A stretch of 64,000 nucleotides of DNA from Flavimarina sp. Hel_I_48 (GTDB lineage: Bacteria; Bacteroidota; Bacteroidia; Flavobacteriales; Flavobacteriaceae), in contig NZ_JPOL01000002.1 of the NCBI RefSeq assembly GCF_000733945.1, forward strand, positions 988,501 to 1,052,500. Reading direction: 5' to 3'. A program made the translations under genes and the position numbers. The notes below the pieces were generated by a model. It worked only from the letters and a program-made list of their open reading frames with translations. It searched no databases and was not told where the DNA came from. Positions 58 through 59,714 of this stretch are shown one piece after another; the stretch's first letter is position 1, and every line of letters starts with the position of its first letter.

Positions 58-1368
58 CTAATCTATATATTTTTTATAGTTATCAACGTCGATTCGTGAT
101 CCCAGATCATGCATCAAATTATACAGTCCAAAGAACGTTCTGTTTATGTACAGAAAATGCTTGCTCCCACGATTACCGTTCATTTTTCTAAGCTCTGTAT
201 CTTTTGAATACTTTTCACTAAGTTCCCCTATCTTGCTGAAAAAATTATCATCCTTAAAATCAAATTTTTCAGAGTGAAAGGGCTTCGTCAACAAACTGAG
301 CATCTCATAAAAAATATCTGAAAAGAATTTCAATTCTTCCGGGCTATCATCCCTTCGCAATATTTCCAGTTCAAACATTTTTTGCCTAAACAGTTCAGGA
401 TTATCTATGTTTTCAGGATTTGCAAGTTCAAAATAAGGCTCATAAAATTCCTGTGGTACTTCTTTGATACACCCAAAGTCTATTGCGACCAGATTATGTT
501 CCTCATCAACTAAAAAATTGCCGGGATGTGGATCTGCATGCACTTGCTTGAGTACGTGCATCTGGTACATATAAAAATCCCATAAGGTCTGCCCTACCTG
601 ATCTGCAACCGCCTGATCTGTATTATGAGCGGTAAACTCACTTATATGTTCCCCCTGCATCCAGTCCATCGTGATAATGCGCTCACTTGAGAGTTCTGGA
701 TAATATTTTGGGAATTTAAGGTGCCCTATATGATCACACAAAGTTGTGATGTTCATACTTTGCTTTACTTCAAGCAGGTAATCTGTCTCTTCGAGCAGTT
801 TTTGCTCTACTTCTTTGAAGTATTTTTCCTTATCCTTCCCCCTCAGGTTAAACATCCGGGTAGCGATAGGCTTCACTAGAGCCAAATCACTACTGATACT
901 ACTTGCGACGCCGGGATATTGTATTTTCACAGCAAGTTTTTTCCCATCCAATGTTGCCTGGTGTACCTGGCCAATACTGGCCGCGTTCACACTTTCGCTA
1001 GTAAATGTATCAAAGATATCTTCCGGATATTTATCGAGGTATTTTTTAAAGGTCTTACGTACCAGAGGCGCAGATAACGGTGGCACCGAAAACTGGGAAA
1101 GCGAAAACTTTTCCACATAAGCCTTTGGCATAATATTTTTTTCCATACTTAGCATTTGCGCCACTTTAAGCGCACTGCCTTTCAGGCTTTTTAAACTGTC
1201 ATATATATCTTCTGCGTTGTCTTCGTTGAGTTCGTCACGAGTTGTAGAAGAGTCAAAAGCTTTTTTACTGTAATATTTAGCATAATTACCGCCCAATTTC
1301 ACCCCCGTAGTGACCAGTTTGCTGGCTCGGGCTAGTTTATTCGTTGGTATATGATCTATGGTTTTCAT
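58..1368 (-). CDS. ABC1/AarF (UbiB-like) atypical kinase
   Basis: 436-residue protein of the ABC1 (AarF/UbiB/ADCK) protein-kinase-like family. Seen: a KGSALKVAQ stretch near residues 63-71 where the family has KxGQ (the Gly is Ala here), AASIGQVHQA (the Ala-rich replacement of the P-loop), AVKIQYPG with the ATP-binding Lys, the catalytic-loop HADPHPGNF and the metal-binding DFG. Relatives act in ubiquinone biology or lipid homeostasis, but Bacteroidota use menaquinone, so the role here is open. It lies 12 bases after a TetR-type gene and is probably cotranscribed with it. Family call is secure, function is not. Confidence 0.88.
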   Translation of the reverse strand: MKTIDHIPTNKLARASKLVTTGVKLGGNYAKYYSKKAFDSSTTRDELNEDNAEDIYDSLKSLKGSALKVAQMLSMEKNIMPKAYVEKFSLSQFSVPPLSAPLVRKTFKKYLDKYPEDIFDTFTSESVNAASIGQVHQATLDGKKLAVKIQYPGVASSISSDLALVKPIATRMFNLRGKDKEKYFKEVEQKLLEETDYLLEVKQSMNITTLCDHIGHLKFPKYYPELSSERIITMDWMQGEHISEFTAHNTDQAVADQVGQTLWDFYMYQMHVLKQVHADPHPGNFLVDEEHNLVAIDFGCIKEVPQEFYEPYFELANPENIDNPELFRQKMFELEILRRDDSPEELKFFSDIFYEMLSLLTKPFHSEKFDFKDDNFFSKIGELSEKYSKDTELRKMNGNRGSKHFLYINRTFFGLYNLMHDLGSRIDVDNYKKYID

Positions 1369-1380
1369 ACTAAAATTTAA

Positions 1381-2073
1381 TTAAGCTTTTACAAAACGAT
1401 CTTTGAACAAAAATTTGCCAAGATCAAGAACACTCTCTAAGGGCGTCGTTTCAAAAACATCAAAGATCGCTTTTACAGACTTCTCGATAGCAATGTCTGT
1501 CTTTTCAAAACCAGCGGAATTATCATCCATCCAGTATTTCAACAAGAACAGCATTTGCACCCAGGCACCTTCACTAAAAATCCGCACCGGGTTTTTTACC
1601 AGTTTAGAATTTTTCTCCTCATTCCCACGTTCAATAAGGTCTGCAGCAAAATCTTTGAATTCAAGACGTAATTTGCTCAACTGCTTGAGATTTTTCATCT
1701 TATCATTGCGCTCCCGCAACGTGAAAAGAACATAACTGCGGTTTGCCGTAAGCAGTTCAAAAAAAGTAAAAAAGAAAGAGAGCATTTTTTCCTTATTGGG
1801 ATAATTTACATATCCCTTATCCTTGTTTAGAACCAGAATTGTATTCTCATAAAAGGCAACCCATATATGTTCCCGCAACCCTTCAAAGCTTCCAAAGAAG
1901 TTATAGAAATCAGCTTCTTCCATTCCATTTTCCTTCGCAAACTTATAGACGCTTTTAGGACGTTCCCCGTTCTCGAGAACATAGTCCATATAAGTAGAAA
2001 TTATGATTTCTGCTGTAGGCTCTATTTTAGTAGTAGTCTGTGAAGTAACCTGTTTCTTAATTTTAGCTGCCAT
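1381..2073 (-). CDS. TetR-family transcriptional regulator
   Basis: 230 residues. The N-terminal 25-75 region has the TetR helix-turn-helix pattern (IISTYMDYVLENG ... VYKFAKENGMEEADFYNFFGS), and the rest is a helical C-terminal domain of the kind that usually binds ligand or dimerises. It precedes the ABC1 kinase gene by 12 bases, so the pair is probably one transcript and the regulator may control both. A TACTTTTA box (2092-2099, minus sense) just upstream resembles the -7 consensus with its last base changed. No ligand can be named. Confidence 0.85.
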   Translation of the reverse strand: MAAKIKKQVTSQTTTKIEPTAEIIISTYMDYVLENGERPKSVYKFAKENGMEEADFYNFFGSFEGLREHIWVAFYENTILVLNKDKGYVNYPNKEKMLSFFFTFFELLTANRSYVLFTLRERNDKMKNLKQLSKLRLEFKDFAADLIERGNEEKNSKLVKNPVRIFSEGAWVQMLFLLKYWMDDNSAGFEKTDIAIEKSVKAIFDVFETTPLESVLDLGKFLFKDRFVKA

Positions 2074-2386
2074 AACAAATCTGTTGTTCCGTAAAAGTAA
2101 TTCTGTTTAACGCTAATAAAAAACCCTTGAACAAAATTTTGAGTTAAAGTTCTTTCATGAGAAATGAAAGCTGTTTGCTAGGTCTTTAGCGTGCAAATCC
2201 TACGATTCTAATATCAGGGATGATTTCAATATTCGTTTCAGAATTGTCGTGCTTTTTACTATTTACTTACAAACCAATGCCACTTTGTCACGGCATCCTT
2301 CACTGGTATTTTTTTTGACATACTTAAAAAAGAGAACACTAATTGTAGAACACATCGCCACCGGGCGATCTTAAATAACATAACGT
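2074..2386. other. Divergent intergenic region between tetR-like gene and htpG
   Basis: 313 bases between divergent genes. No clear TAnnTTTG box is visible on the htpG side. The copies TGTCA (2286-2290) and TGACA (2316-2320) form a loose inverted pair upstream of htpG and could be a stress-regulator site, but this is weak. I see no ORF or RNA gene here. Confidence 0.4.
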
Positions 2387-4282
2387 ATGTCAACAGGTAA
2401 AATAAATGTTGCTGTAGAAAACATCTTTCCACTTATTAAGAAGTTTTTGTACAGCGATCACGAGATCTTTTTGAGGGAACTTGTGTCTAATGCAACTGAT
2501 GCAACTTTAAAATTGAAGCATCTTACTAATATAGGGGAAGCCAAAGTAGAATATGGTAGTCCCTATGTTGAAGTTAAGATAGATGAAGAAGGTAAAAAAC
2601 TTCATATTATAGATCAGGGTGTGGGTATGACCGAAGAGGAAGTACGCAAATACATCAATGACATTGCCTTTTCTGGTGCAGAAGAATTTCTTGATAAGTA
2701 CAAAGAAGCTGGTAAAGAAAGCGGAATTATAGGTCATTTTGGTCTTGGTTTCTATTCGGCTTTTATGGTTGCTAAAAAAGTGGAGATCATTACAAAATCT
2801 GCCATTGATCAGGATGCTCCTGCCATGCACTGGGAATGTGATGGTTCTCCGGAGTTTACCCTTACGGAAACTGAAAAAAACACACATGGTTCTGAAATCA
2901 TTTTGCACATTGCAGATGATAGCGAAGAATTCTTGAAAAAATCAAGGATTCAGGAACTTTTGAGCAAGTACAACAAGTTCATGCCTATCCCAATTAAATT
3001 TGGTACCACAGAGGAGGAAATTCCTTTGCCGGAAGATGCCGCGGAAGACGCAGAACCTGAAACTAAAACCGTTGATAATATAATCAACAATCCCAACCCG
3101 GCGTGGACCAAGCAGCCAACAGAACTTGAGGAAAAAGACTATAAAGGTTTTTACCGTGAGCTGTATCCCATGCAATTTGAGGAGCCGCTTTTCCACATTC
3201 ACCTGAATGTTGATTATCCTTTCAACCTTACAGGGATTCTTTATTTCCCCAGGTTAAACCAGGACATGAATGCACAACGTGACCGCATTCAGTTATATCA
3301 AAATCAGGTATTTGTAACGGATAACGTTGAAGGTATCGTTCCAGAATTTTTGACCATGTTACGTGGTGTGATTGATTCTCCTGATATTCCGCTTAACGTT
3401 TCCCGTTCCTATTTGCAGGCTGATGGCGCCGTAAAGAAAATAAGCAGCTACATTACCAGAAAAGTTGCTGATAAGCTTAACCAACTCTTTAATGATGATC
3501 GTGCCGATTTTGAGAAAAAGTGGAACGATATTAAAATCGTTATTGAATATGGTATGTTGAGCGAAGATAAGTTCTTTGAAAAAGCCCAGAAATTTGCACT
3601 TTACCCTACCGTAGATGGAAGCTTCCATACTTTTGATGAATTACAGGAAAAAATAAAGGAAAAGCAAACCGATAAAGATGGCAAACTGGTCGTGCTTTAT
3701 GCTTCTGAACAGGATAAGCAACACCAATATATTAAAGCTGCAAAAGCAAAAGGTTACGATGTATTGCTTCTTGATTCTCCAATAGTTCCGCACTTGATTC
3801 AAAAGATTGAAGGTGAGAAGGAAAATATAAGTTTTGTACGTGTAGATGGTGACCACGTTGACAATCTGATCAAAAAAGATGAAGACCAGATTTCTAAACT
3901 TTCTGATGAGGAAAAGGAAACTTTAAAAACAACGCTTGAGGAAACTATCGCAAATAAGTCCTATAATGTGCAATTACAGCCTATGGATAGCGGTTCTGCT
4001 CCCTTTATCATCACGCAGCCAGAATTTATGCGTCGTATGAAAGAAATGCAACAGACCGGCGGCGGTGGTGGCATGTTTGGTATGGGCAATATGCCAGATA
4101 TGTACAACCTTGTGGTAAATACTAACCATGAACTGGTTTCCGAAATTCTAAATACCAAGACCAAGAAAAAGCAGGAACGTTTGATCAAACAATCCCTTGA
4201 TCTTGCTCGTCTTTCTCAAGGTCTATTAAAAGGCGCAGAGCTTACTGATTTTGTAAAGCGCTCCTATGATATGATCAAATAA
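2387..4282 (+). CDS. htpG: Molecular chaperone HtpG (Hsp90)
   Basis: 631-residue bacterial Hsp90. The N-terminal GHKL ATPase shows the helix FLRELVSNATDA with the catalytic Glu and Mg-binding Asn, the ATP-lid motifs IIDQGVGMT and IGHFGLGFYSAFMVA, and the middle-domain LNVSRSYLQAD carrying the catalytic-loop Arg. An acidic linker lies near residues 210-230, and a Gly/Met-rich patch (GGGGGMFGMGNMPDMY) in the C-terminal dimerisation part resembles client-binding surfaces. The cytosolic Hsp90 MEEVD tail is absent, as expected for bacteria. It is a single-gene unit closed by a strong terminator. Length fits the family. Confidence 0.97.
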   Translation: MSTGKINVAVENIFPLIKKFLYSDHEIFLRELVSNATDATLKLKHLTNIGEAKVEYGSPYVEVKIDEEGKKLHIIDQGVGMTEEEVRKYINDIAFSGAEEFLDKYKEAGKESGIIGHFGLGFYSAFMVAKKVEIITKSAIDQDAPAMHWECDGSPEFTLTETEKNTHGSEIILHIADDSEEFLKKSRIQELLSKYNKFMPIPIKFGTTEEEIPLPEDAAEDAEPETKTVDNIINNPNPAWTKQPTELEEKDYKGFYRELYPMQFEEPLFHIHLNVDYPFNLTGILYFPRLNQDMNAQRDRIQLYQNQVFVTDNVEGIVPEFLTMLRGVIDSPDIPLNVSRSYLQADGAVKKISSYITRKVADKLNQLFNDDRADFEKKWNDIKIVIEYGMLSEDKFFEKAQKFALYPTVDGSFHTFDELQEKIKEKQTDKDGKLVVLYASEQDKQHQYIKAAKAKGYDVLLLDSPIVPHLIQKIEGEKENISFVRVDGDHVDNLIKKDEDQISKLSDEEKETLKTTLEETIANKSYNVQLQPMDSGSAPFIITQPEFMRRMKEMQQTGGGGGMFGMGNMPDMYNLVVNTNHELVSEILNTKTKKKQERLIKQSLDLARLSQGLLKGAELTDFVKRSYDMIK

Positions 4283-55181: not shown

Positions 55182-55220
55182 AAAAGGCCAACGTCCATAA
55201 GGATGTTGGCCTTTTTTTTT
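55182..55220 (+). terminator. Terminator of the alcohol dehydrogenase gene
   Basis: AAAGGCCAACGTCC / GGATGTTGGCCTTT stem followed by a T-run. Confidence 0.93.
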
Positions 55221-55269: not shown

Positions 55270-55303
55270 TTTGTTTATCTAAAAACACAGTTTATTAAAC
55301 AAA
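55270..55303. promoter_or_regulatory. TTTGTTTA / TAAACAAA inverted repeat upstream of the MerR gene
   Basis: Arms at 55270-55277 and 55296-55303 with 18 bases between, directly upstream of the -7 box (55309-55316). The spacing and position fit an operator for the downstream MerR-type regulator acting on its own operon; this is inferred. Confidence 0.5.
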
Positions 55304-55308
55304 AAATG

Positions 55309-55316
55309 TAAATTTG
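55309..55316 (+). promoter_or_regulatory. -7 promoter box of the carotenoid operon
   Basis: TAAATTTG matches TAnnTTTG, 33 bases before the regulator's start codon. No other promoter box is obvious between the operon genes. Confidence 0.6.
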
Positions 55317-55349: not shown

Positions 55350-56252
55350 ATGAATGCCGTCAAAACCAAATTCAGCATAAAAGATCTAGAGAATTTGGCC
55401 GGGGTTAAAGCTCACACCATACGCATCTGGGAAAAACGCTACAACCTCCTTGAACCCGATAGAACCCCAACCAATATACGCACATATACCTTAAAAGACC
55501 TTCAGAAATTGCTGAACGTTACTTTTTTACTGGAACACAATTACAAGATTTCTAAAATTGCCCAGAATGACAATAAGGCAATTATAAAAATGGTAAAACA
55601 AATTGTGGAGCAGAAAGAAAAACCTAAAAATCATCAGGCGCTTAATTCTTTCAAGATTGCAATGATGAACTTTGATCAGCAATTGTTTGCTAAAACATTT
55701 GATTCCCTTTCAGATAAACTACAGTTTAGAGATATATTTTATCAGGTTTTGATACCATTACTGGAAGAAATAGGGCTTTTATGGCAGACGAATACCATAG
55801 ATCCCTCCCATGAACATTTTATTACAAACCTCATAAAGCAAAAAATTCTGCTTAAGATCGAAGAATACCAGATTGAACATATACCTGATAAATCAAAGGT
55901 ATTTGTACTTTTTTTACCTGAAAATGAAATCCACGATCTGGGGCTATTATTTTTAAATTATGAGATCGTAAGCCATGGTTATAAATGTATTTATTTAGGC
56001 CAAAGTATCATGATCGAAAATTTGAAATATTTGAACCAGAACCAACCTAACGTACATTTTGTATCTTATTTTACGGTTAAGCCAGAAGACACTTCGGTTT
56101 CTGATTATGTAAAAATCTTTAATAAAGAGATGGAAAATGACCATATTCCCCTTTATATTTTCGGCAGGAAAGCGCTGCGTGAAAACATAAAGAACCTGCC
56201 CTCAAATGCGCAGGTAATCAAATCTATTGACTCTTTTATTGAAGATTTATAA
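55350..56252 (+). CDS. MerR-family regulator with B12-binding domain (CarH/LitR-like)
   Basis: 300 residues. MerR winged helix at residues 8-75 (GVKAHTIRIWEKRYNLLEPD). From about 100 on, the CarH-like cobalamin module: W145 followed nine residues later by E155-H156 (the CarH W-x9-EH motif in the four-helix part), and E193-I-H195-D-L-G198, the Rossmann ExHxxG whose His is the lower cobalt ligand. The residue after the Trp is Gln146; in CarH it is the His (132) that binds cobalt after light. Expected to control the crt genes, possibly as a B12-bound repressor released by light. Its stop abuts the crtI start. Confidence 0.88.
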   Translation: MNAVKTKFSIKDLENLAGVKAHTIRIWEKRYNLLEPDRTPTNIRTYTLKDLQKLLNVTFLLEHNYKISKIAQNDNKAIIKMVKQIVEQKEKPKNHQALNSFKIAMMNFDQQLFAKTFDSLSDKLQFRDIFYQVLIPLLEEIGLLWQTNTIDPSHEHFITNLIKQKILLKIEEYQIEHIPDKSKVFVLFLPENEIHDLGLLFLNYEIVSHGYKCIYLGQSIMIENLKYLNQNQPNVHFVSYFTVKPEDTSVSDYVKIFNKEMENDHIPLYIFGRKALRENIKNLPSNAQVIKSIDSFIEDL

Positions 56253-57710
56253 ATGAAAAAGAAAATTAGCATCATAGGTTCCGGTTTTTCATCGCTTTCC
56301 GCAGCGTGTTACCTGGCACAACAGGGACATGAAGTACATCTATATGAAAAAAATCGAACCATAGGTGGTCGTGCGAGACAATTAAAGCGGGACGGATTTA
56401 CTTTTGATATGGGGCCTTCCTGGTTCTGGATGCCTGATGTTTTTGATCGTTTTTTTGCCGATTTTGGTAAAAAACAATCAGATTATTATACTCTAGAAAA
56501 ACTGGATCCTGCGTATCGGGTTTATTTTGGGAAGGATGACTACATCACTATTGAAGACACTTTAGATAAAATAAAAAAGGTTTTTGAAGCAGAAGAACCG
56601 GGAAGTGCAAAAAAACTACAGCACTTTATAGATAAGGCCAGGGACAATTATGACGTCGCCATTAAAGATATTGTCTATCGCCCTGGAGTTTCACCACTTG
56701 AGCTTGTCACACCAAAAACGATCGTTAAAATAGGTCGCTTTTTTAGTACGATTAGTAAAGATGTACGTAGTGCATTTACCAACCCAAAACTGATTCAAAT
56801 TCTTGAATTCCCGGTTCTTTTTCTGGGAGCAAAACCTTCTGATACACCCGCTTTTTATAGTTTTATGAACTATGCAGACTTCGGCTTGGGAACTTTTCAT
56901 CCTAAAAACGGTATGTATTCAGTCATTGAAGGTATTGAATCCCTTGCCCGGCAATTGGGCGTGAATATACATACAGATAGTGTCGTCAATCGCATACGTA
57001 CCGAAGGAAACACGGCAGTGGGTTTAGAAATTAACGGAAAAAGTATATTATCTGATATCGTTTTGAGTGGTGCAGATTATCATCATACCGAAACGCTATT
57101 GCCGGAATCTTTGCGACAATATTCAGAGAAGTATTGGGACAGTAGGGTTTTTGCGCCCTCTTCCCTCCTCTTTTATATAGGTTTTGATAAGAAGATTGAA
57201 AACGTAAACCACCACAACCTCTTTTTTGATACTGATTTTACAAGGCACGCCAGAGAAATCTATGACGAGCCAGAATGGCCCACAGATCCGCTTTTTTATG
57301 CCAATTTCCCATCAAAAACTGATAAATCAATGGCTCCAGAAGGTAAAGATGGCGGCTTTTTTCTTATTCCCATTGCGCCAGGCCTTTATGATTCTCAAGA
57401 GCTGAGAATAGAATATTTTGATAAGATCATAGATCGTTTTGAGCACTTAACCAATCAAAAAGTGCGAAAAAATATTATATTTAAGGAATCTTTCTGTGTA
57501 AAAGACTTTCGGCAAGATTACAATTCCTACAAGGGCAACGCTTATGGGATGGCAAATACATTGTTGCAAACAGCCTTTCTACGACCAAACCTGAAAAGCA
57601 TGAAAGTGAAGAACCTGTTTTTTACAGGTCAATTAACGGTTCCCGGCCCTGGCGTTCCGCCTGCGCTAATTTCTGGCAAACTGGCTGCGGGACTTATTGA
57701 AAAACAGTAG
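56253..57710 (+). CDS. crtI: Phytoene desaturase CrtI
   Basis: 485 residues. FAD-dependent desaturase that turns phytoene into lycopene. Seen: the N-terminal dinucleotide loop IIGSGFSSLSAACYLAQQGH, YEKNRTIGGRARQL, FDMGPSWFWMPD and the C-terminal FTGQLTVPGPGVPPALISGK. Starts with no gap after the regulator's stop and lies 6 bases before crtB, so they form one operon. Confidence 0.95.
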   Translation: MKKKISIIGSGFSSLSAACYLAQQGHEVHLYEKNRTIGGRARQLKRDGFTFDMGPSWFWMPDVFDRFFADFGKKQSDYYTLEKLDPAYRVYFGKDDYITIEDTLDKIKKVFEAEEPGSAKKLQHFIDKARDNYDVAIKDIVYRPGVSPLELVTPKTIVKIGRFFSTISKDVRSAFTNPKLIQILEFPVLFLGAKPSDTPAFYSFMNYADFGLGTFHPKNGMYSVIEGIESLARQLGVNIHTDSVVNRIRTEGNTAVGLEINGKSILSDIVLSGADYHHTETLLPESLRQYSEKYWDSRVFAPSSLLFYIGFDKKIENVNHHNLFFDTDFTRHAREIYDEPEWPTDPLFYANFPSKTDKSMAPEGKDGGFFLIPIAPGLYDSQELRIEYFDKIIDRFEHLTNQKVRKNIIFKESFCVKDFRQDYNSYKGNAYGMANTLLQTAFLRPNLKSMKVKNLFFTGQLTVPGPGVPPALISGKLAAGLIEKQ

Positions 57711-57716
57711 AAGTAC

Positions 57717-58556
57717 ATGAAAGAAATTTTTGACAGCGTATCATTAAAGTGTTCGCAAATGGTTACAAGGTCGTACAGCACTTCATTTTCGACGGCGACG
57801 CAAATGCTTGCTCCCAGTATTAGACAGGACATCCACAACATTTATGGATTTGTACGTTTTGCAGATGAAATCGTAGATAGTTTTCACGATTATGATAAAA
57901 AACAACTTTTTGAAAGGTTCAACACAGATCTTGAAAATGCCCTTATTGAAAAGATTAGTTTAAATCCCATACTCAATTCTTTTCAGCATACCTATCACCG
58001 CTTTGGGATTCAAAAAGAACTCGTGGATTCTTTTATGAAAAGTATGCGCCTGGACCTTACAAAAAGTGATTACCTCACAGAAGCAGATTATAAAGAATAT
58101 ATTTATGGTTCTGCTGATGTTGTGGGACTTATGTGCCTAAAGGTATTTGTGAACGGAAATCAGGAAAAATATGAAGAGCTTCGCGAAAGTGCGATGCGAC
58201 TGGGATCTGCATTTCAAAAAGTGAATTTCTTACGGGATCTCAAAGCTGATTACGAAGAACTTAGCCGCAGTTATTTTCCCAACGCTAACTTGGAAGAACT
58301 CGATGAACCCAGCAAACAAAAGATAATTGATGAAATTGAAGCTGATTTTGCCCTTGGTTTAGCAGGTATTCATATGCTACCGGTAGAAGCAAAATTTGGT
58401 GTATATACCGCATACCGTTATTATAGAAAACTACTTAGTAAATTAAAAAGTACGCCTTCCATTGAAATAAAAAATACACGTATACGTGTACCCAACTATG
58501 TAAAAGCTTCACTATTGGCCCGTAGTTATGTAAAATACAGATTAAACCTTATTTAA
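57717..58556 (+). CDS. crtB: Phytoene synthase CrtB
   Basis: 279 residues. Joins two geranylgeranyl diphosphates into phytoene. The two Asp-rich motifs are present: GFVRFADEIVDS (D-x3-D) and NFLRDLKADYEELSRSYFP. Squalene/phytoene synthase fold throughout. No crtE (GGPP synthase) is in the window, so the precursor comes from elsewhere. One base separates it from crtZ. Confidence 0.95.
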   Translation: MKEIFDSVSLKCSQMVTRSYSTSFSTATQMLAPSIRQDIHNIYGFVRFADEIVDSFHDYDKKQLFERFNTDLENALIEKISLNPILNSFQHTYHRFGIQKELVDSFMKSMRLDLTKSDYLTEADYKEYIYGSADVVGLMCLKVFVNGNQEKYEELRESAMRLGSAFQKVNFLRDLKADYEELSRSYFPNANLEELDEPSKQKIIDEIEADFALGLAGIHMLPVEAKFGVYTAYRYYRKLLSKLKSTPSIEIKNTRIRVPNYVKASLLARSYVKYRLNLI

Positions 58557-58557
58557 A

Positions 58558-59010
58558 ATGCAGACGCTTATCTGGATACTTGTTTTTTTGACCACATTTT
58601 GTCTAATGGAATTTATGGCATGGTTTACCCATAAATATGTTATGCATGGTTTTTTATGGTCGTTACATCGTGACCATCACCATAAAGACCATGGCTCATG
58701 GTGGGAGCGTAATGACTTTTTCTTTATTTTTTACGCCCTGGTAAGTATAGGTTGCTTTCTATTGTGGCGTTATGAAGATGTCTGGATAGGATTACCCATT
58801 GGGTTGGGGATATTTGCTTACGGTATGACTTATTTTATGGTTCACGATATTTTTATACATCAGCGCTTTAAAATCTTCCGTGACGCCAATAATTGGTATT
58901 CTAAAGGATTGCGCCGTGCGCATAAAATTCACCATAAACATTTGGAAAAAGAAGAAGGTGAGTGCTTCGGCATGTTGTTGCCACCTATCAAATTCTTTAA
59001 GACCAAATGA
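58558..59010 (+). CDS. crtZ: Beta-carotene hydroxylase CrtZ
   Basis: 150 residues, a membrane di-iron hydroxylase. His boxes HKYVMH, HRDHHHKDH, HDIFIH and HKIHHKH are all present, with hydrophobic segments between. Adds 3-OH groups to beta-carotene to give zeaxanthin. Lycopene cyclase (crtY) is not nearby, so the ring-forming step is encoded elsewhere. Overlaps the next gene by 4 bases. Confidence 0.94.
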   Translation: MQTLIWILVFLTTFCLMEFMAWFTHKYVMHGFLWSLHRDHHHKDHGSWWERNDFFFIFYALVSIGCFLLWRYEDVWIGLPIGLGIFAYGMTYFMVHDIFIHQRFKIFRDANNWYSKGLRRAHKIHHKHLEKEEGECFGMLLPPIKFFKTK

Positions 59011-59714
59011 GTTTCCTCACCGCCGAATGGCGAAAATTGTGTTTTGCCAACTATCAAATAGATCCCGAGATCTTAAAACCTTATGTTCCCTTGGGAACAG
59101 AACTTGATTTTTTTGAAGGTAAATGTTATGTAAGCCTGGTAGGGTTTCTTTTTGATAAAGTCAAATTAAAAGGGATTTCCGTTCCGTTTCATACCCGCTT
59201 TGAAGAAATCAATTTACGCTTTTATGTTACCCGAATGATTGATGGAAAAAAGCGTCGAGGTACTGTTTTCATTTCTGAAATTGTAGCAAAACCAGCAATT
59301 GTACTTGTTGCAAATCTACTCTACAATGAAAAGTACAGCCTAAAGAAAATGCATTACAACCACCATATTACTACCACAGAAAATACAATAAGTTACGCTT
59401 TAAAAAACCGCGGAAAATGGCAACAAATTGCCCTTACGACCGAAAATATTTCAAAACCATTTGAATCTGGCAGCAAAACAGAATTCATTACTGAACATTA
59501 CTGGGGATATAGCAAAAAAGATGAAAATAAAACCGTTGAGTATGAAGTTCGCCATCCTCAATGGGAAGCTTATGAAGTGATAAATCACAGCATTGAAATT
59601 GACTTTGGGCAATTATACGGCAAAGCTTTCTCTAGTTTAAGTAAACAAATACCAGATTCTTTACAATGTATGGAAGGCTCTCCCATTAGCATTGAAGGAA
59701 AGAAACTGATATAA
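59007..59714 (+). CDS. DUF2071 (YqjF-like) protein
   Basis: 235 residues of the DUF2071 family, which has an acetoacetate-decarboxylase-like fold. Recognised by LTAEWRKLCFANYQIDPEIL, KPYVPLGTELDFFEGKCYVS, LRFYVTRMIDGKKRRGTVFI and the C-terminal WGYSKKDENKTVEYEV and VRHPQWEAYEV. Overlaps crtZ as ATGA, so it is translated with the carotenoid genes. Function unknown; the tie to pigment formation is only by context. Confidence 0.88.
   Translation: MSFLTAEWRKLCFANYQIDPEILKPYVPLGTELDFFEGKCYVSLVGFLFDKVKLKGISVPFHTRFEEINLRFYVTRMIDGKKRRGTVFISEIVAKPAIVLVANLLYNEKYSLKKMHYNHHITTTENTISYALKNRGKWQQIALTTENISKPFESGSKTEFITEHYWGYSKKDENKTVEYEVRHPQWEAYEVINHSIEIDFGQLYGKAFSSLSKQIPDSLQCMEGSPISIEGKKLI

Follow-up and report, generated by a model that had tools for sequence, protein, structure and literature searches.

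Can a B12-dependent regulator of the CarH type still serve as a light switch when the histidine that ligates cobalt in the CarH photoproduct is missing? This question is raised by a gene in a 64,000-nucleotide stretch of the genome of Flavimarina sp. Hel_I_48 (Flavobacteriaceae; contig NZ_JPOL01000002.1, positions 988,501 to 1,052,500), referred to here as the window, which encodes a MerR/B12 regulator at the head of a carotenoid (crt) operon. Flavobacteriaceae are common in sunlit water. Our analysis suggests that the regulator is, somewhat probably, an adenosylcobalamin (AdoCbl)-dependent repressor whose release by light needs no bis-His ligation and which heads a photoprotection regulon. 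The wider proposition – that many Flavobacteriaceae possess a broad sunlight-protection regulon under one Gln-form B12 photoreceptor, with no bis-His ligation and with inverted rather than direct operator repeats – we regard as evenly poised between right and wrong.

A CarH-like regulator with glutamine at the His132 position

The protein carries a MerR-type DNA-binding domain (PF13411, 2.7e-14) with an RxWERRY-like recognition helix (R25-I-W27-E28-K-R30-Y31). Its translation and alignments bear out the two B12 signatures picked out by an earlier sequence-only reading, W145-x9-E155-H156 and E193-x-H195-x-x-G198: the first corresponds to the Wx9EH adenosyl-cap motif (W145, E155, H156), as defined in PMC8156234, and the second to the ExHx2G lower-ligand motif (E193, H195, G198).

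The same reading had set Gln146 at the place of CarH His132, and two alignments agree with it. A phmmer comparison with PDB sequences pairs W145-Q146 with W131-H132 of Thermus thermophilus CarH (3whp, 5c8d; whole-sequence E ~1e-12), and MAFFT with the CarH from a Thermus plasmid record likewise puts Q146 opposite His132; the outcome that would have overturned the assignment, a histidine at CarH-132, appeared in neither. The residue following the tryptophan is thus Q146, not the His of the bis-His photoproduct.

Other parts of the CarH description are missing as well. The x41-SxV/T-x22..27-GG portion of the B12 motif is not matched, the score with the NCBIfam CarH equivalog NF052513 is 68.6 bits where the cut-off lies at 400, and only two parts of the four-part SignatureFinder signature for light-responsive B12 domains are present, namely GxxW (G142-L-L-W145) and EH (E155-H156). 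On its equivalog score, the second half of its B12 motif and the His132 position, the protein is, as far as its sequence can tell, a variant rather than a CarH.

Conservation and distribution

In a sample of 199 Flavobacteriaceae genomes from 198 genera, a match to the regulator (counted at E <= 0.001) was found in 171, and in 150 at E < 1e-50. Residues were compared across 62 loci from this family, 38 from other families of the class and, elsewhere in the phylum, 17 from other classes. The residue after the tryptophan is Gln in 59 of the 62 family loci (His in two, Gly in one); among the 38 it is Leu in 10, Gln in nine, Met in five and others in the remainder, never His, and only one of the 17 has His. 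Glutamine also holds this place in 119 of the best 120 homologues out of 8000 scored, and in 78 of the best 80 named loci out of 591 found (71 of 73, plus seven Aquimarina loci after correction of mis-called starts), the other two being His forms from Kordia; these three sets overlap in organisms. Given 59/62, 119/120 and 78/80, a loss confined to one genome was rejected. Natural His forms are represented by L050, L119, L278 and L288, the last two from Kordia.

The lower-ligand residue H195 is kept in 62/62 family loci, in 31/38 from other families and in 17/17 from other classes, and H156 in 59/62 family loci. These comparisons indicate that the B12-ligand residues are strongly kept in Flavobacteriaceae and that the photoproduct His is the exception among the sampled Bacteroidota. 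At the first position of GxxH, Asn stands in 54/62 family loci; at the last position of GxxxP, Pro stands in 59/62, and the 120 nearest proteins have Met or Gln there in 88 cases. Judged by the names of near homologues, the window lies close to Leeuwenhoekiella.

Two side observations concern this distribution. A second, distant CarH-like clade exists within the family (11 genomes including G134, best E 1e-37 to 1e-45), whose locus L101 has Gly after the tryptophan. Contigs titled Bifidobacterium breve (L319) and Klebsiella pneumoniae MAG (L324) hold a flavobacterial regulator–crt cluster and are probably mis-binned.

The conserved ligands bear on the view that the regulator acts in the manner of CarA, with B12 not being the signal and repression being lifted in light by some other photoreceptor or by an antirepressor (a LOV, cryptochrome or CarS-like partner, for instance). 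Myxococcus xanthus CarA acts without B12 (PMC8156234), class II LitR operates with a LOV protein (PMC9758184), and the degenerate second half of the B12 motif fits such a mode. However, Wx9EH, absent from CarA according to PMC8156234, is kept in the regulator, H195 and H156 are conserved at the frequencies just given, and the 80 named loci revealed no conserved partner gene adjoining the regulator, crtI being the next gene in 79 (genes elsewhere were not searched). We consider this mode unlikely, and a CarA-like loss of B12 use was rejected as the leading view on account of the retained Wx9EH.

A 'semi-conserved histidine' of LitR is reportedly the subject of a 2016 paper. The sequence-only reading had over-read the absence of His132 as unusual: Arg in CtMerR, Gln in SasPcob and Tyr in AbDPcob occupy this place, and all three proteins respond to green light (PMC11796333). 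Light-responsive B12 domains without His132 are therefore already published and not new; even in CarH, His after the tryptophan is common but not universal, 'many' myxobacterial CarH proteins having it (PMC9304148).

A predicted operator

Ahead of the regulator gene lies a perfect inverted repeat, TTTGTTTA-N18-TAAACAAA, five bases before TAAATTTG, a match to TAnnTTTG, the -7 consensus of Bacteroidetes. Of 61 Flavobacteriaceae promoters of the regulator gene, 49 contain the half-site TTTGTTTA or its complement within 150 bp upstream, whereas 30 rounds of shuffling gave a mean of 3.7 and a maximum of 9; outside the family it occurs in 8 of 56 loci against a shuffle mean of 2.4. Among the 80 named loci, 76 have the half-site in the regulator's own promoter; it is fused to TAnnTTTG in 68 and begins precisely 25 bp ahead of the start in 61. 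The reversed half-site, present in 33 of these 80 promoters, overlaps the true motif and so is no independent control, which the shuffles are.

Across 12 genomes, the half-site TANNTTTGTTTAAC occurs 48 times and its reversed pattern 27 times. The regulator locus accounts for 11 of the 48 sites (in 10 of the 12 genomes), and because the remainder is 37 vs 27, the half-site alone is weak and the inverted repeat was used instead. In its exact form (TTTGTTTA-N17..20-TAAACAAA, with the reversed pattern as control), it was found at 239 sites in 123 of the 199 genomes, compared with 28 sites in 27 genomes for the control. It is present in 117/150 genomes with the regulator (E < 1e-50) vs 6/49 without (p 1.4e-16), a difference that persists in near-complete genomes (105/136 vs 4/29) and in genomes with crtB (117/150 vs 4/27); the reversed pattern has no such link (19/150 vs 8/49).

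It is conceivable, though quite improbable, that the inverted repeat belongs to a different factor travelling with the regulator. In favour of this, the repeats are inverted rather than direct, their link to the regulator is one of co-occurrence only, and 2 of the 11 genomes with the distant homologue alone contain the exact repeat. Yet the half-site stands in the regulator's own promoter at nearly all named loci, the repeat depends on the regulator even among crtB genomes, and TAAACA within the half-site agrees with TnnACA, the core of the CarH repeat nAnnTnnACAn, albeit weakly, with six such 4–5/5 matches found in 150 AT-rich bases. Where counted, His-form genomes keep the exact repeat – six sites in G561 (home of L050) and three in G550 (L119) – for which reason the Gln and His forms may serve the same circuit.

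The predicted regulon

Targets were assigned from 73 rows, representing 72 distinct sites of the 239 (L185 and the first L214 row are identical), taken in listed order except that the regulator-adjacent L251 and L252 were chosen knowingly and three left out, so that the crt share is not unbiased. For 64 of the 73 rows a gene start is no more than 350 bp away, and six fall inside a long ORF; the corresponding numbers for 27 reversed-pattern sites are 13 and 14.

The Flavimarina genome itself has three sites with at most one mismatch: the perfect one at the crt operon, one at an operon encoding a flavin-reductase-like protein together with a photolyase/cryptochrome (PF00875, PF03441) and a photolyase-related DPRP protein, and one in the space that separates two DoxX-like genes from the gene for an amine-oxidase-type flavoprotein. 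The nine repeats with exactly two mismatches were rejected as a class, being no better than chance; one of them, between divergent htpG and TetR_C_23/ABC1 genes in the window, is used here because two relatives (L214, L234) have an exact repeat at the same place, between htpG and a TetR_C_23 gene followed by a gene for 442–444 residues.

Among the rows from relatives, eight have the repeat ahead of crtI or the regulator, five ahead of an SRPBCC–photolyase operon and one ahead of rhodopsin/blh. Pfam families of the 93 nearest genes (the 25 commonest of 82) include fasciclin (17), MnmA-type (10), crtI-type (7), HSP90 (4), GHMP kinase (4) and PMSR (2), and single cases of GTP cyclohydrolase I (folE) and a desaturase lie near repeats. 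No gene near a reversed-pattern site matched these target classes. Many repeat sites precede genes without an obvious link to light.

Fasciclin proteins are the commonest target class, their gene being divergent from mnmA in L186, L188, L189, L191, L195, L222, L229, L230, L231 and L249. By analogy, these bacterial proteins possibly bind carotenoid, as does the algal fasciclin protein AstaP, which photo-oxidative stress induces (PMC7477208, PMC10147662). A repeat or half-site also lies between rhodopsin and blh genes in L170 (6717–6805) and L220 (2494–2527); there is a hint that the regulator may set rhodopsin expression too.

Proposed mechanism

By all indirect signs, the regulator would work like CarH. 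With its adenosyl cap and lower ligand intact and its predicted targets photoprotective, it is most simply read as a light switch based on AdoCbl. In the dark, AdoCbl would be bound base-off on H195, its adenosine capped by W145 with E155/H156, and the AdoCbl-bound oligomer would cover the TTTGTTTA/TAAACAAA sites in promoters. Light would cleave the Co–C bond and release adenosine; cobalt would then bind water or hydroxide rather than a second His, the cap helix would shift, the oligomer loosen and the DNA be freed, at the regulator's own crt operon and across the photoprotection regulon. A water or hydroxide light state follows from Gln146 in such a switch, as in SasPcob, whose light state is a water/hydroxide-ligated monomer with no large domain swing (PMC10979010). 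The cofactor can apparently be made in this genome, since an adenosyltransferase (PF01923) match is present there, as in 184 of the 199 genomes.

Several findings weigh against this proposal. The B12 motif is degenerate in its second half, with S239-Y-F for SxV/T, 40 rather than 41 residues after G198, and a single Gly (FG272) at the GG position; in the SignatureFinder signature, N192 replaces Gly in GxxH (N192-E-I-H195) and M221 replaces Pro in GxxxP (G217-xxx-M221). The operator repeats are inverted, CarH operators being direct; the exact repeat is absent from 33 of the 150 regulator genomes, including the congener G531, and present in six of the 49 without; and the p values overstate the operator–regulator link, as the sampled genomes are related. 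In the Flavimarina genome, sites with at most two mismatches number 12 vs 10 for the reversed control (the latter not split by mismatch). Four regulator genomes (G401, G439, G453, G455) have no PF01923 match, other adenosyltransferase families not having been searched. Finally, T. thermophilus CarH H132A photolyses yet stays mostly tetrameric in light, although an earlier report saw disassembly (PMC10442372), so that loss of the His could weaken signalling.

This mutant, together with Gln146 in 59/62 family loci, is also what speaks for a sensor of B12 occupancy, in which AdoCbl presence and not light sets repression and photolysis without His132 leaves the DNA bound. We nonetheless doubt that the regulator is one: photolyases and crt genes stand among its predicted targets along with rhodopsin/blh, folE and msrA, and no B12 transport or synthesis gene was noticed near repeats in the Pfam families covered, the 25 commonest out of 82; at the His132 place, Gln or Arg is found in proteins that do respond to light; and natural His forms exist, two of whose genomes keep six and three repeats. 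Of the two suggestions in the sequence-only reading – a different way of sensing light or sensing of B12 itself – B12 sensing is the less supported, the targets pointing to light or photo-oxidative stress; a bis-His photoproduct is unlikely because the AdoCbl-binding residues are kept but Gln holds the CarH-132 place.

The crt operon and its surroundings

The coordinates of the features are collected in Table 1. The sequence-only reading had described an operon headed by the regulator and running through crtI, crtB, crtZ and a DUF2071 gene; family matches support crtI, crtB and DUF2071, and the crtZ name, which is derived from His-box patterns, has no Pfam or NCBIfam match at 1e-3. Among the named loci, L254 (Leeuwenhoekiella) is the one of 80 in which a DUF2071 gene closes the crt run; inspection by eye adds L165 of the same genus.

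Table 1. Features in the window (positions counted from its first nucleotide).
Feature	Position	Strand	Remarks
TetR_C_23 protein, possible target	1381..2073	-	ABC1 kinase gene 58-1368 (-) follows
Weaker operator-like repeat, 2 mismatches	2102..2135	.	between divergent htpG and TetR_C_23/ABC1 pair
htpG (HSP90), possible target	2387..4282	+	
Terminator-like hairpin and T run	55182..55219	+	between upstream gene and regulator, by eye
Predicted operator TTTGTTTA-N18-TAAACAAA	55270..55303	.	half-sites 55270-55277, 55296-55303
TAAATTTG	55309..55316	+	fits Bacteroidetes -7 consensus TAnnTTTG
CarH-like MerR/B12 regulator	55350..56252	+	ATG-start ORF, 300 aa
Residue codons of regulator	W145 55782-55784; Q146 55785-55787; H195 55932-55934		read from translation
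crtI-type phytoene desaturase	56253..57710	+	NF058655 728.7 bits, cut-off 640
crtB phytoene synthase family	57717..58556	+	PF00494
crtZ-like hydroxylase	58558..59010	+	name from His boxes
DUF2071 protein	59007..59714	+	PF09844

Significance

Genome comparisons suggest that the regulator may act as the switch for a programme of protection against sunlight that many relatives have in common and that comprises pigments, DNA-repair enzymes and stress proteins. If this is true, one light switch and the AdoCbl supply would tie together carotenoids, photolyases, rhodopsin/retinal, fasciclin proteins as perhaps the carriers of carotenoid, isoprenoid supply and protein repair, the predicted regulon linking the light response to the supply of B12. 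The natural series at one position (Gln, His and others) bears on the need for bis-His ligation in CarH-type signalling.

The open-access literature searched yielded no CarH-type light regulon in Flavobacteriaceae and, from 2018 on, nothing joining CarH, Bacteroidota, cobalamin and photoreceptor; Chryseobacterium lacus is described as forming light-induced carotenoids without car or lit genes (PMC7064467). The operator and regulon predicted across the family are the new, testable part: the regulator, its target genes and the 34-bp site are all named in the prediction and open to direct testing.

Comparison with known systems

The closest likeness is to CarH, or class I LitR, as known from T. 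thermophilus (PDB 5c8d-5c8f), with which the regulator shares a MerR head, a four-helix cap with Wx9EH, a Rossmann part with ExHxxG and the overall fold, as well as a neighbourhood of carotenoid and photolyase genes – Thermus carH adjoins phr and a phytoene synthase gene. It differs from Thermus CarH in having Gln for His132, degenerate SxV/T and GG elements and 20% identity, and its predicted sites are inverted, in contrast to the direct repeats of CarH operators.

Among B12 photoreceptors, CtMerR of Chloracidobacterium (8jbs/8jbt) has a divergent DNA-binding domain and the photocobilin SasPcob (8j2w/8j2x) carries a bilin domain; both have the complete four-part SignatureFinder signature, of which the regulator has two parts. 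Myxococcus CarA shares the MerR/B12 architecture and the control of carotenoids, but lacks Wx9EH and is B12-independent (PMC8156234). The class II LitR proteins of Pseudomonas (PplR/PmlR) resemble the regulator in commanding a light regulon, there comprising phrB, folE and cryB, but of the B12 domain they have just the four-helix part, and they rely on a LOV protein partner (PMC9758184).
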